Part shown: positions 17,656-63,149 of the stretch, one piece after another
Layout: each line of letters opens with the position of its first letter
Numbering within the stretch: position 1 is the stretch's first letter
Origin: Candidatus Phocaeicola excrementigallinarum
Lineage (GTDB): Bacteria; Bacteroidota; Bacteroidia; Bacteroidales; Bacteroidaceae
Direction of reading: 5' to 3'
Length of the DNA stretch: 64,000 nucleotides
Assembly (NCBI GenBank): GCA_019120125.1
Contig: DWVR01000057.1
Coordinates: forward strand, 1-64,000
Program-made: the position numbers and the translations under genes
Notes under the pieces: model-generated
Seen by the model: the letters and a program-made list of their open reading frames with translations, nothing else
Databases searched by the model: none
What the model was told of the DNA's origin: nothing

Positions 17656-18303
17656 ATGGAGTTTTTACAACTTATCATCGATTTCATCCTGCACATAGAC
17701 CATCACATGGTCCAACTGGTACAAGACTATCATCTGTGGACATACGCCATTCTGTTTGTCATCATTTTCTGTGAAACCGGCCTTGTGGTAACCCCGTTCC
17801 TGCCGGGCGACTCACTGCTCTTCGTGGCCGGAGCCATCACGGCCCTGCCGGAAATGCCACTCGAGATAGGCTATCTGGTAGTGGTGGTGTTCACCGCCGC
17901 CGTGCTCGGCGACTCATGCAACTATATGATCGGGCATTTCTTCGGGAAAAAGCTGTTCAGCAATCCCGATTCCAGGATATTCAAGCAAAGCTATCTCGAC
18001 AAGACCCATGACTTTTTCCGCAAATACGGCGGCAAGACCATCATTCTGGCCCGGTTTGTCCCCATCGTACGCACATTCGCGCCTTTTGTGGCCGGTATGG
18101 GAAAGATGAACTATTACTATTTCATGATCTACAACCTCACCGGCGCGGCCTTATGGGTGGGGATATTCTGCTTTGCCGGCTATTTCTTCGGTGACCTGCC
18201 GTTTGTACAGCAGAACCTGAAGCTCTTGCTGCTGGCCATCATCGTCATTTCCGTGCTTCCGGCAGTCATCGAGGTGATCCGCGCCAGACTGAAAAAAGCG
18301 TAG
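17656..18303 (+). CDS. DedA family membrane protein
   Basis: [46 protein letters not shown]. Confidence 0.9.
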
Positions 18304-18356: not shown

Positions 18357-18439
18357 AAAACATCAAGGCGTTTTACCTGAAACGCCGAAGTGTTTTTTAA
18401 AAACGTCAAGGCGTTTTGACCAAAACGTCTTGACGTTTT
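18357..18439. repeat. Array of four 18-bp imperfect palindromes (array A)
   Basis: Units at 18357 AAAACATCAAGGCGTTTT, 18379 GAAACGCCGAAGTGTTTT, 18400 AAAACGTCAAGGCGTTTT, 18422 AAAACGTCTTGACGTTTT; spacing 22/21/22. Confidence 0.85.
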
Positions 18440-18502: not shown

Positions 18503-18510
18503 TATTTTTG
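18503..18510 (+). promoter_or_regulatory. -7 element TATTTTTG
   Basis: TAnnTTTG 28 bp upstream of the ADH ATG at 18538. Confidence 0.45.
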
Positions 18511-18537
18511 CCAAAAGAAACCATTCAACAGAACCGT

Positions 18538-19713
18538 ATGAACAACTTTGTCTTTTATAGTCCTACCGAATTCGTTTTCGGAAAGGACACGGAATCGAGA
18601 GTGGCTGAGATGACAGCCAAATACCATGGGACGAAAGTACTGATAGTCTATGGCGGCGGTTCAGTCGTACGCAGCGGCCTGCTTGACAGAATCAGGAAGA
18701 CTCTTGACGAGGCACATATCAGCCATATTGAACTGGGCGGAATACAGCCTAACCCTACAGACCTGAAAGTCTATGAGGGAATCGAACTGGGACGACGCGA
18801 AAAAGTGGACTTCCTGTTGCCCGTCGGCGGCGGATCGGTCATTGACACCGCAAAAGCCATTGCCTGCGGCATCCCGTACGAAGGTGACTTCTGGGACTTT
18901 TTCATTGGAAAGGCGGTTCCGCGACAAGCCTTGCGCCTGGGGGTGGTGCTCACCATTCCGGCGGCCGGCAGTGAAGGTTCCGGCAACTCGGTCATCACGA
19001 AGACAGACGGGCTGAAGAAATTGAGCCTGCGCACACCGGAAGTGCTACGGCCCGCCTTCGCCATCATGAATCCGGAGCTGACTTTCACCCTCCCGCCCTG
19101 GCAGACCGCCTGCGGCATCACCGACATGATGGCCCACATCATGGAACGCTATTTCACCAATACCGAAGAGACTGAAGTGACCGACCGCCTGTGTGAAGGT
19201 ACACTGAAGGCAATCATCGAAGAAGCGCGCAAGGTGATGAAAGAGCCTCGTGACTACGGAGCACGTGCCAATATCATGTGGGCAGGAACCATCGCACACA
19301 ACGGCATATGCGGCGTAGGCTGTGAAGAGGACTGGGCCTCGCATTTCATGGAACATGAGGTCAGTGCCGTATATGACGTGACTCACGGAGCGGGACTCGC
19401 CGTCATCTTCCCGGCATGGCTGACCTATATGGCCGGCCACCACGCAAGGAAAGCGGCACAGCTCGCCAACCGTGTCTGGAATGTACCCGAGTCGGACAAC
19501 CTGAAAGCGATGGCACTGGAAGGAATCGAGAAAATGAAAGAGTTCCTGCACGAGATCGGCATGCCCGTCACTTTCAAGGAACTGGGAATCGAACATCCGG
19601 ACATTGACCTGCTGGTAAGAAAACTGCATGAGAATAAGGGTGAGCTTGTAGGCAATTACGTCAGACTCGACCGACAGGCCACCCGGGAAATTTACGAGAC
19701 AGCAAACCGATAA
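18538..19713 (+). CDS. iron-containing alcohol dehydrogenase (BDH/YqhD-like)
   Basis: MNNFVFYSPTEFVFGKD, LPVGGGSVIDTAKAIA, THGAGLAVIFPAWLTYM. Confidence 0.9.
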   Translation: MNNFVFYSPTEFVFGKDTESRVAEMTAKYHGTKVLIVYGGGSVVRSGLLDRIRKTLDEAHISHIELGGIQPNPTDLKVYEGIELGRREKVDFLLPVGGGSVIDTAKAIACGIPYEGDFWDFFIGKAVPRQALRLGVVLTIPAAGSEGSGNSVITKTDGLKKLSLRTPEVLRPAFAIMNPELTFTLPPWQTACGITDMMAHIMERYFTNTEETEVTDRLCEGTLKAIIEEARKVMKEPRDYGARANIMWAGTIAHNGICGVGCEEDWASHFMEHEVSAVYDVTHGAGLAVIFPAWLTYMAGHHARKAAQLANRVWNVPESDNLKAMALEGIEKMKEFLHEIGMPVTFKELGIEHPDIDLLVRKLHENKGELVGNYVRLDRQATREIYETANR

Positions 19714-29737: not shown

Positions 29738-29901
29738 TTTTGCGGCACACCTTTTCCCACGGATTCAAGAAGGATATTCAGTAAATGTCCCTAAAGGAAA
29801 ATGTACCGTTTAACTCATTCGGCTAAGCCACAGTTAAACCGCCCCATTCGAGCAACAAAAAAAGGAGCTACATTTTATCGTAACCCCTTGATTATCATTT
29901 G

Positions 29902-29976
29902 TCGGGGTAGCGGGATTCGAACCCACGACCCCCTGCTCCCAAAGCAGGTGCGCTAACCGGACTGCGCTACACCCCG
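29902..29976 (-). tRNA. tRNA-Pro(TGG)
   Basis: Cloverleaf CGGGGTGTAGCGCAGTCCGGTTAGCGCACCTGCTTTGGGAGCAGGGGGTCGTGGGTTCGAATCCCGCTACCCCGA. Confidence 0.95.
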
Positions 29977-30013
29977 GACAAATATAAATCTACTGAAACT
30001 TTCAGATTCTCCG

Positions 30014-30088
30014 TCGGGGTAGCGGGATTCGAACCCACGACCCCCTGCTCCCAAAGCAGGTGCGCTAACCGGACTGCGCTACACCCCG
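30014..30088 (-). tRNA. tRNA-Pro(TGG), identical second copy
   Basis: Same 75-nt sequence as 29902-29976. Confidence 0.95.
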
Positions 30089-59418: not shown

Positions 59419-61071
59419 ATGAAAATCCTCTGGCTCGACCTGAACAGCTCCTACGCACACGCATCCCTTGCCTTGCCGGCACTCCACGCACAAGTGAAAG
59501 ACAACCCCGATTACGAATGGGATGTGGTGTCCGCCACCGTCAACGAGAATCCGGGACTGATTGCCGGTCATGTCTACGGACGGCAACCCGATCTTGTCGC
59601 AGCCACCTGCTGGCTGTTCAACCATGAGGCACTGACGCATATCCTCAGCCGGGTCAAGGCGCTGCTGCCACATTGCATGATGGCGTTGGGAGGGCCGGAG
59701 TTTCTGGGAGACAACGAATGCTTCCTTCGCCAGAACACTTTCATCAATGCGGTGTTCCGCGGCGAAGGGGAAGACACATTCCCCAAATGGCTGGAAATCT
59801 GGAACGAGCCGGACAGATGGGAAAGCATCACCGGCCTCTGCTATCTGGACCACAAAAACCGATACCACGACAACGGACTGGCGCGGGTCGTGCATTTTGA
59901 CCGGCTGGTTCTTCCCGAAGAAAGCCGGTTCTTTAACTGGAGCAAGCCTTTCGTGCAACTGGAGACCACGCGCGGATGCTTCAACACCTGTGCCTTTTGC
60001 GTAAGCGGATCCGAAAAGCCTGTCCGCAGTCTGCCCGTCTCTGTCATCCGTTCACGTATCGAAACCATCCACCGACACGGCATCCGCAACATACGGGTAC
60101 TGGACCGCACTTTCAACTATAGCGAAAACCGTGCAAAAGCATTGCTCAACCTGTTCCGGGAGTTTCCCGACATCCGTTTTCATCTTGAAATCCATCCGGC
60201 CCTGATTTCCGACGGACTGAAAAAGGAACTTGCCGACATGCCTGAAGGATTGCTCCACCTGGAAGCCGGCATACAGAGCCTGCACCAGGACGTGCTGACG
60301 GCAAGCCAACGGACAGGCGGACTGGATGACTCACTACGGGGTCTGGAATACCTCTGCGGCCTGCCCAACCTTGAAACACACGCAGACCTCATCGCCGGAC
60401 TTCCCCTCTATCACCTGGAACAGATATTCGAGGATGTACGTACCCTTGCCTCCTACCATGCCGGAGAAATCCAACTGGAATCACTGAAAGTGCTTCCGGG
60501 AACAGAAATGCGCCGACATGCCGAGAAATTGGGGATAGACTACTCACCCCTCCCACCCTACGAGGTCTTGAGAACCCATGAGATTTCTCCCGACGAACTG
60601 CAGACGGCCCGCCAGCTTTCCCGCCTCATCGACGGATTCTACAACGCGAAAGCCTGGCAAGGCGTCACCCGACAACTGATAGTGAAGCAAAAAGACTTCC
60701 TCCGCCGTTTCCTTGACCACCTTGTCGGCATGGGGGTCATTGACCAGCCGCTGAGTCTGGAACGGCGTGGCGTAATACTCTACGAATTCTGCCGACAATG
60801 CTATCCCTCCTGTCTCACGTCTGTCACACGCGCATGGATCGAGGCTGGAATGTCACTCAAGAAGTCCCCTGCCGGGAAAGTACGTACCAAACATGTGATC
60901 CCTCCGTCACACTGGCAAGTCAAGTCCGGCATCTACAACGAGACATTACGCCTGTGCCGCCTTGACGATCCCGACACAAATACCATCTTCTGGTACGGTT
61001 TCAATACCGACATACAGCATCCCGTCCCGGTGTTCCAGGCCGTCTCTCCCATCGGATCCATCGAAGAGTGA
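59419..61071 (+). CDS. B12-binding-domain radical SAM protein (DUF4080-like)
   Basis: MKILWLDLNSSYAHASLALPALHA, TRGCFNTCAFCVSG. Confidence 0.9.
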   Translation: MKILWLDLNSSYAHASLALPALHAQVKDNPDYEWDVVSATVNENPGLIAGHVYGRQPDLVAATCWLFNHEALTHILSRVKALLPHCMMALGGPEFLGDNECFLRQNTFINAVFRGEGEDTFPKWLEIWNEPDRWESITGLCYLDHKNRYHDNGLARVVHFDRLVLPEESRFFNWSKPFVQLETTRGCFNTCAFCVSGSEKPVRSLPVSVIRSRIETIHRHGIRNIRVLDRTFNYSENRAKALLNLFREFPDIRFHLEIHPALISDGLKKELADMPEGLLHLEAGIQSLHQDVLTASQRTGGLDDSLRGLEYLCGLPNLETHADLIAGLPLYHLEQIFEDVRTLASYHAGEIQLESLKVLPGTEMRRHAEKLGIDYSPLPPYEVLRTHEISPDELQTARQLSRLIDGFYNAKAWQGVTRQLIVKQKDFLRRFLDHLVGMGVIDQPLSLERRGVILYEFCRQCYPSCLTSVTRAWIEAGMSLKKSPAGKVRTKHVIPPSHWQVKSGIYNETLRLCRLDDPDTNTIFWYGFNTDIQHPVPVFQAVSPIGSIEE

Positions 61072-61150: not shown

Positions 61151-62380
61151 ATGTACGTATTCCGATCCATACACGAAATCACCAACACCATTGCAGTAGC
61201 CAGAGGACTGCTCACGGCGATGTTCGAGAAAAGGAAATCACTCAGTTTCCGCTATGCCGACGCACTCGCCCTGCTCAAAGACGATGAGAACCGCCTGAAA
61301 CTTCTTCTTGAAAAAGAAGTCATCCGACAGAACGGCAATTTTGTGGAACTCGACGCACGCTTTCTCGATTTTTTCGAAATGTTGCTTGAGGCGAATGAGG
61401 AAATCAACACTGCCGCCATCAACGAAAACATCGAGTACCTGCACGAACTGATGGACTATTATGGCAAGGAACAGATCGCATCGCGCAAGGAAAGCTATGT
61501 GAGAAACATCAAGATGACTTTCCAGAAAATCGAGCGGACCACCCTCCGTAACGTCATGAACCTGCAAAGCAGCATCGACCATGCCTTCAAACATGAGCCG
61601 ACCTACCAGATAAAGATCGCCAAGCTTGAGAATCTCGACAAGAAGCGCGTCAATATCCAGCAGCTTATCGACACCACGGAGAACCTGATCCTTCATGAGG
61701 AAAGGAGATTCTTCCAGCAAGCCACTGACGAGGAACTGCAACGCATACTGCTCGAACTAAGGAGCGGACTGCAGCTCTCCGCCCACAGCCTGATCCGGGC
61801 GCAACAAGACATCATCAACTACCTGAACCAGATAAAAAGCCAGGTCATTCTGGTAGAGAAAATCAGGAAACTGAAATACCTGCATGACACCTTTGAACTT
61901 CGTGCGCGGAGCAACCTCACCGAAGTAGTGGCACGGGAACACTCGGTACTCATGGAAGGCACCCCACCTTCATCGTTCAAGCTATCCGTGAACTATCTGG
62001 GCACCGACGAGGCACGGCCCGTGATACTCAAAGTGCTCCGCAACCTGCAATACCGCGAGACCGTACGCAGCAACGAGGCCGGAGCGTTCAGCGAGGAGGA
62101 TATGGAAATACCTGCCATGTACGAGCAAGTCATCGACCTCGACGAGACGACAAGCGATTATCTGCAAGCCCAGGCTCAGGTATGCTGGAACAACGCTCAA
62201 GCCAGACAGGAAGACCTGTTCTCCTATCTGATGCGGTATACCTTCAAACGGGATGTGGGCGAGCAGGAACGCACCACCATCTTCTGCCAGATTGTCTCGC
62301 TCTATGAGTCGCAGTTCCGCATCAGCGACACATACGGAACCTATAAGGAATTTGAGTATGCCAAGGTATATCCGGCCTGA
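61151..62380 (+). CDS. MukF/MksF/JetA-like condensin subunit
   Basis: 409-aa helix-rich protein upstream of JetB- and JetC-like genes; assigned mainly by context and length. Confidence 0.6.
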   Translation: MYVFRSIHEITNTIAVARGLLTAMFEKRKSLSFRYADALALLKDDENRLKLLLEKEVIRQNGNFVELDARFLDFFEMLLEANEEINTAAINENIEYLHELMDYYGKEQIASRKESYVRNIKMTFQKIERTTLRNVMNLQSSIDHAFKHEPTYQIKIAKLENLDKKRVNIQQLIDTTENLILHEERRFFQQATDEELQRILLELRSGLQLSAHSLIRAQQDIINYLNQIKSQVILVEKIRKLKYLHDTFELRARSNLTEVVAREHSVLMEGTPPSSFKLSVNYLGTDEARPVILKVLRNLQYRETVRSNEAGAFSEEDMEIPAMYEQVIDLDETTSDYLQAQAQVCWNNAQARQEDLFSYLMRYTFKRDVGEQERTTIFCQIVSLYESQFRISDTYGTYKEFEYAKVYPA

Positions 62381-62417
62381 CACCACACTCTTCCACAATA
62401 CAAAAAAACAAGAAATA

Positions 62418-62501
62418 AAAACGCCTTGACGTTTTACTTAAAACGCCCTGACGTTTTGCCTGAAACGCCGAAGCGTTTTTCCAAAAACGTCAAGACGTTT
62501 T
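62418..62501. repeat. Array of four 18-bp imperfect palindromes (array B)
   Basis: Units at 62418 AAAACGCCTTGACGTTTT, 62440 AAAACGCCCTGACGTTTT, 62462 GAAACGCCGAAGCGTTTT, 62484 AAAACGTCAAGACGTTTT; exact 22-bp period. Confidence 0.9.
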
Positions 62502-62561
62502 TTCAGGCCTCGTAGAACACTGTAACATAACCATTTAAAAAACCGAAATTATCCGACCGAC

Positions 62562-63149
62562 ATGGAACTGAACATACGAATACCCGACCATACGTCCGTC
62601 CTTTTCGACTACCTGCAGAAAGGGCAGTTCATCTGCTCGAACAGTTGCGACGAGACGGTACGCGACATGTATGAGATGATAGACGACAATTTCGAGGCGC
62701 TCTCACTCTATTTCTTGCAGATTGGCTACACGCTGGAGCGCGGAAACGAATATTTCTACTTCTCACGGACAGAACCCCGGGCCACTCTCGAGCAGAAAAT
62801 CCTGCGCGCATACTACTGGATTGACGTACTTGACCTGTTCAAGACTTACGACGAGACATTCGGTGCGGGCTGCCGCTTCCAGCCGGAACAGATTCTGGTG
62901 GAAGCCAACATCAACGTGGCCCTGCAAAACAAGCTCGACGGAATGAGAAAACACTTCTCCGACAGGGAAGTCCGCAAGGACGTGCTCGACAATATCATCC
63001 GCCAGCTCGCAAAAGAATCGTTCATCGAACTGGAAAACGAGAAATCGAACACCTACAAGGTGCTCAGCGCATGGCACTATCTGGAACGATTGATAGAAAG
63101 CATCCAAATTTTTGACGAAACAGAAGAAGAAAATGAGAAACCTGAATAG
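62562..63149 (+). CDS. MukE/MksE/JetB-like condensin subunit (DUF4194-like)
   Basis: 195-aa winged-helix-type protein with acidic C-terminus between JetA-like and SMC-like genes. Confidence 0.65.
   Translation: MELNIRIPDHTSVLFDYLQKGQFICSNSCDETVRDMYEMIDDNFEALSLYFLQIGYTLERGNEYFYFSRTEPRATLEQKILRAYYWIDVLDLFKTYDETFGAGCRFQPEQILVEANINVALQNKLDGMRKHFSDREVRKDVLDNIIRQLAKESFIELENEKSNTYKVLSAWHYLERLIESIQIFDETEEENEKPE

Follow-up and report, generated by a model that had tools for sequence, protein, structure and literature searches.

DNA sites that organize chromosomes are known in few bacteria, and we found none described in the literature for gut Bacteroidales. Tandem sites at helical spacing that serve cooperative proteins are familiar from plasmid iterons and MetJ met-box arrays, and CRISPR arrays consist of repeats with unique spacers of 25 to 40 bp, located beside cas genes. 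In the Ter macrodomain of Escherichia coli, 23 matS sites in 800 kb are bound by MatP (PMC3330122), which interacts with the condensin MukBEF (PMC8669397, PMC10945525). Among repetitive extragenic palindromes (REPs), those tagged with CGTC have no dedicated transposase (PMC3733652). In Porphyromonas gingivalis, the BrickBuilt element is a MITE with a 23-nt tandem repeat, present in 19 intergenic copies (PMC4596501).

We examined a 64,000-nucleotide stretch of the genome of Candidatus Phocaeicola excrementigallinarum (here called the window), for which an initial annotation had described an array of four palindromes at approximately 22-bp spacing. This array (array A, 18357-18439) was confirmed: its unstranded 18-bp units lie at 18357-18374 (AAAACATCAAGGCGTTTT), 18379-18396 (GAAACGCCGAAGTGTTTT), 18400-18417 (AAAACGTCAAGGCGTTTT), and 18422-18439 (AAAACGTCTTGACGTTTT), with unit-to-unit spacings of 22, 21, and 22 bp. 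It was said to lie downstream of dedA, and a DedA/VTT-domain gene (17656-18303, plus strand; Pfam PF09335, E = 2.2e-23) indeed has its stop codon 53 bp ahead of the array. The gene after it (18508-19713, plus strand) encodes an iron-containing alcohol dehydrogenase (PF00465, E = 6.8e-39). A second array of the same design had been reported at 62418-62501 (array B) and was likewise recovered, with unstranded units at 62418-62435 (AAAACGCCTTGACGTTTT), 62440-62457 (AAAACGCCCTGACGTTTT), 62462-62479 (GAAACGCCGAAGCGTTTT), and 62484-62501 (AAAACGTCAAGACGTTTT), all spaced at 22 bp. Ahead of array B lies a gene (61151-62380, plus strand) that has no Pfam match and was assigned by position as the MksF gene of a condensin-like operon; directly after it comes the gene for the condensin subunit MksE (62562-63149, plus strand; PF21980, E = 9.2e-42). 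Positions 18375-18417 are as similar to 62458-62501 as claimed. This likeness comes from a common vocabulary of units, and we saw no evidence that either array was copied from the other. Across the window, 17 matches to the motif were detected with up to two mismatches (0.92 expected), a count reached by no shuffle. An Rfam search of the window (cmscan) returned no match to the arrays, only a TPP riboswitch (RF00059; 51449-51544) and tRNA, with two tandem tRNA-Pro(TGG) genes at 29901-30088.

The genome-wide pattern search that the initial annotation had proposed revealed that the tandem motif is dispersed throughout this genome (G000; 2.75 Mb, 88 contigs), with 77 tandem pairs of the motif as first formulated, 119 exact tandem pairs of the looser frame alone, and 0 pairs for a reversed-pattern control. 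Arrays number about 100 in this bacterium and in a subset of its near relatives. The constant frame is AAACG-N6-CGTTT, in which the pentamers AAACG and CGTTT alternate at 11-bp intervals, each separated from the next by six variable bases. Information content is approximately 2 bits per position across the pentamers and drops outside them; the flanks are uninformative past two A's, and the units are symmetric. The expected enrichment of 22-bp spacing elsewhere in the genome was also found: 54 fetched array loci contained spacings of 22 bp (141 instances) and 21 bp (21 instances) and no other value, and 51 of the 54 had exactly four units. Inner hexamers are of few kinds (CCTTGA/TCAAGG in 79 of 204), and outer hexamers fit YRNNYR. 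The set of central hexamers in use differs from species to species, which refines the motif as first written.

To determine how widely the arrays occur, we searched 62 Phocaeicola genomes, including P. mediterraneensis (G007) and P. barnesiae (G035). The frame was present in 25 of these and, outside the genus, in 1 of approximately 390 sampled genomes of the order; a contig search recovered it only from Phocaeicola (P. plebeius among the matches) and one unrelated Bacteroidetes metagenome-assembled genome. The number of units is species specific, mostly 3, 4, or 5 to 6. Arrays of this genome have 4 units with hexamer CCTTGA, those of G003 mostly 3 with CCGAAG, those of G075 mostly 3 with CCTAAG and CCTTGA, and those of the mediterraneensis group mostly 5 to 6 with CAAGTG. 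Two genomes hold far more degenerate than exact pairs: 209 with up to two mismatches versus 23 exact in G069, and 120 versus 14 in G035. These mismatch-only matches are mutated relics of arrays. G017, G010, and G026 had no pairs even with up to two mismatches allowed, and a search for 22-bp palindrome arrays that specified no sequence detected 5 in 140 kb of G007 but 0 in 140 kb of G017 and 0 in 120 kb of G010. A G069 array (L112) orthologous to one in G083 (L127) carries CpG changes in its pentamers (AAATG, AAACA), as expected if a putative factor was recently lost from that species.

Several further occurrences were recorded. In G003, where most arrays have 3 units, segments 98.7 to 99.2% identical to G000 hold 4-unit arrays of the G000 type (L018/L087, L021/L062, L022/L070), reflecting recent transfer or bin contamination. 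In Bacteroidetes bacterium ADurb.Bin234, eight units of the AAACG-N6-CGTTT frame form an array (L150:3602-3771) between an HU-like-looking gene and a phoH-like-looking gene, as read from the sequence. One viral contig and G363, a member of another family of the order, both contain 22-bp palindrome arrays of 11 to 15 units (L187, L188, L246, L247), with two sequence blocks and a flank in common. A viral origin of the arrays was considered and dropped; the only viral match was a single contig, whose related array of 12 units resembles one in a non-Phocaeicola genome.

We then compared array positions with random intergenic placement. In nine contigs of G000 (765 kb, 33 arrays), the mean gap was 22 kb, and gaps were far more even than random (coefficient of variation [CV] = 0.42 versus 0.80, P < 0.001), with only 1 gap shorter than 10 kb where 9.3 were expected. 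P. mediterraneensis, sampled over 0.94 Mb (24 arrays) of a single 4.03-Mb scaffold, had no gaps below 10 kb versus 5.1 expected (P = 0.0015). Because it also has several gaps of 55 to 137 kb, its CV was not low (0.82, P = 0.26), and significance there is limited to short-range exclusion; because it is one scaffold, breaks between short-read contigs cannot explain that exclusion. Pooling both genomes, 1 of 47 gaps was below 10 kb versus approximately 14 expected. Distantly related species often carry their arrays at different positions: although orthologous arrays could be ascertained, 0 of approximately 7 positions in an unbiased sample were conserved between G000 and G007. Since positions differ between these genomes, spacing appears to be kept while positions turn over.

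This turnover bears on whether the arrays are operators of a classical regulator acting on neighboring genes. The units are tandem, operator-like palindromes, and the genes for alcohol dehydrogenase and MksE follow arrays A and B, respectively. However, the genes beside the arrays vary in function (DedA, cytochrome bd, serine dehydratase, ABC proteins, and thioredoxin-like proteins), and a regulator of adjacent genes is at odds with positions that turn over between species while spacing stays. Moreover, between tandem genes the units lie mostly 10 to 60 bp past the upstream stop codon, hugging the 3′ end rather than the promoter. We therefore regard local gene regulation as very improbable.

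Location near gene 3′ ends is instead what would be predicted of bidirectional intrinsic terminators, in which each unit forms a hairpin with an A-tract before it and a U-tract after it and is repeated for robust termination. The downstream tract is detectable: T-runs on the sense-strand downstream side exceeded A-runs on the opposite side (27 versus 9 of 41, Wilcoxon P = 0.002), making a secondary role in termination possible. At some gene ends, a conventional terminator in one species takes the place of an array in the other. Array RNA also folded better than shuffled sequence (z = −7.5 and −4.9). Folding had been suggested as a check on an RNA-level role, but array RNA folded no better than permuted arrays, and within arrays there was no clear excess of complementarity between units. 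RNA hairpins would tolerate G-U and avoid A-C pairs on the transcribed strand. In tandem genes, however, G-U and A-C were equally common on the sense strand at stem positions 1 to 5 (28 versus 25) and at position 6 (69 versus 89), and hairpin energies showed no sense-strand advantage, so the strand-specific constraint of an intrinsic terminator was not seen. The compensatory changes noted in the initial annotation are thus partly borne out; those at the sixth base are not compensatory in RNA. An RNA role, unsupported by folding, permuted arrays, and the strand test, was set aside, and pairing looks to act at the level of double-stranded DNA.

Gene arrangement also argues against termination as the primary function. 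Where at least 30 nt separate the stop codon from the array, 20 of 69 intervals fold with z < −2, and many of these are textbook hairpin and T-run terminators; at those loci the array therefore sits past a separate terminator. In an unbiased set, 14 of 57 arrays, about one quarter, are flanked by divergent gene pairs, so the motif is not restricted to transcription ends; such a restriction had been named beforehand as the outcome that would count against a protein-binding array. An earlier set had contained 1 divergent placement in 47; near-total avoidance of divergent pairs was dropped as a feature when the unbiased set gave 5 of 24 in one of the species that the earlier set had covered. Array B, in turn, separates same-strand neighbors in a condensin operon that lie approximately 40 bp apart in relatives, and regular 20-kb spacing is left unexplained by termination. 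Taken together, these observations make it improbable that the arrays are terminators first and foremost.

To examine how arrays evolve, we compared those that BLAST had matched across species at corresponding gene ends. Pentamers were 98% identical in close species pairs and 96% in distant pairs, values somewhat inflated by the use of pentamers to detect arrays. The corresponding identities were 87% and 57% for hexamers, 70% and 50% for spacers, and 78% and 65% for flanks. Whole 22-bp units have been gained or lost between orthologous arrays. Similarity of array cores was 0.86 to 0.87 within species, 0.67 between orthologous arrays of different species, and 0.64 between random arrays of different species. 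Core hexamers go with the species and not with the locus: at shared loci, the core switches to each species' consensus.

Several of these features would also suit selfish, REP-like palindromes that have no host function and spread either through some transposase or through slippage and gene conversion. The arrays are extragenic and palindromic, number about 100, have species-specific sequences, and vary by whole units; P. barnesiae has a fully repetitive, slippage-like 7-unit array; and a missing dedicated transposase has its precedent in the CGTC-tagged REPs (PMC3733652). Yet the RAYT transposase domain Y1_Tnp (PF01797) is absent from the array-rich G000, G003, G007, G023, G083, and G075, and its carriers (6 of the 62 genus genomes) are all array poor or array free. 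No MITE-type terminal repeats were found, and the arrays lack conserved flanks or excess complementarity between left and right flanks. Strong pentamer conservation at old loci and core shifts at fixed loci also speak against selfish spread, and neither short-range exclusion nor fixed unit number is expected of neutral repeats. We consider such an origin unlikely.

Array B lies within a condensin-like mks locus (61151-63149 and L282:2113-5790) in which the MksF-position gene is followed by mksE and a 1,225-amino-acid SMC-like open reading frame. The array separates the MksF-position gene from mksE; a shorter array occupies this site in G003, and none is present there in G023 and G083. Across the genus, mksE was detected in 37 of 62 genomes, including the array-free G017 and G010, and does not track the arrays. 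MksE was therefore rejected as a marker of the trans-acting factor, and the condensin link is a lead only. Just ahead of this locus, a 550-amino-acid open reading frame (59419-61071) matches the PADLOC candidate defense family PDC-M51A (E = 1.1e-18).

The strongest inference from these data is that each array is a set of double-stranded DNA sites for a putative sequence-specific protein, because this accommodates the helical phasing, dyad symmetry, fixed unit number, conserved half-sites, decay, and concerted core change. The initial annotation had likened array A to a set of operators bound cooperatively by a protein, with every palindrome facing one side of the helix; pattern and evolution support this proposal, short of proof. 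We assign a probability of roughly 0.55 to the arrays being operator arrays for such a protein with a probable architectural role in the chromosome, comparable to that of matS. The half-site AAACG recurs every 11 bp in alternating orientation, a geometry that suggests one symmetric dimer per 22-bp unit and neighboring dimers on the same helix face. The observed species-specific unit number (mostly 3, 4, or 5 to 6) would then set the number of dimers that build one complex. Given the spacing of about 20 kb and the near absence of neighbors within about 10 kb, such complexes may organize the chromosome as loop, domain, or condensin-related anchors, as matS does for MatP. Concerted core changes at fixed loci suggest that the core preference of the putative protein shifted between species and that selection drove the dispersed sites to follow. 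Loss of the system may account for the sites that have decayed or vanished in other species. More tentatively, and with less confidence than in an architectural role as such, we propose a chromosome-punctuation system of about 100 arrays with a species-set number of dimers, 20-kb spacing, and a core that coevolves with the putative architectural protein, possibly in connection with SMC/condensin.

Site number, core letters, and spacing can all be read from the sequence, and close species keep, decay, or lack the site family. This contrast puts the putative protein within reach of comparative genomics and pull-down, and the arrays offer a natural test of how a binding specificity evolves in concert with about 100 scattered sites.

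Compared with described systems, the arrays differ from CRISPR in their spacers, which measure 3 to 4 nt when the units are taken as 18-mers and 6 nt when they are taken as 16-bp frames. Iterons and met-boxes occupy one or a few loci at origins or promoters, whereas the Phocaeicola arrays occupy about 100 chromosomal loci with no origin or regulon. BrickBuilt is also an intergenic tandem repeat of similar period in a related member of the order, but its unit is nonpalindromic and terminal inverted repeats accompany its leader and tail, whereas the Phocaeicola arrays lack conserved ends. Like REP/BIME elements (PMC3733652), the arrays are extragenic palindromes of high copy number that are species specific, clustered, and often at gene 3′ ends. 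They differ in lacking a RAYT and the unpaired GTAG or CGTC tag of an asymmetric palindrome, their units being symmetric, and in having a strict 22-bp phase, fixed unit number, invariant pentamers, and regular 20-kb spacing. They resemble matS, which serves in chromosome organization, in being short sites in many copies at intervals of tens of kilobases, and their distributed, nonrandom placement (the low gap CV in G000 and the exclusion below 10 kb in G000 and G007) is matS-like. In contrast to matS, a single 13-bp site confined to Ter, the Phocaeicola arrays comprise 3 to 6 tandem 22-bp units and extend chromosome-wide.
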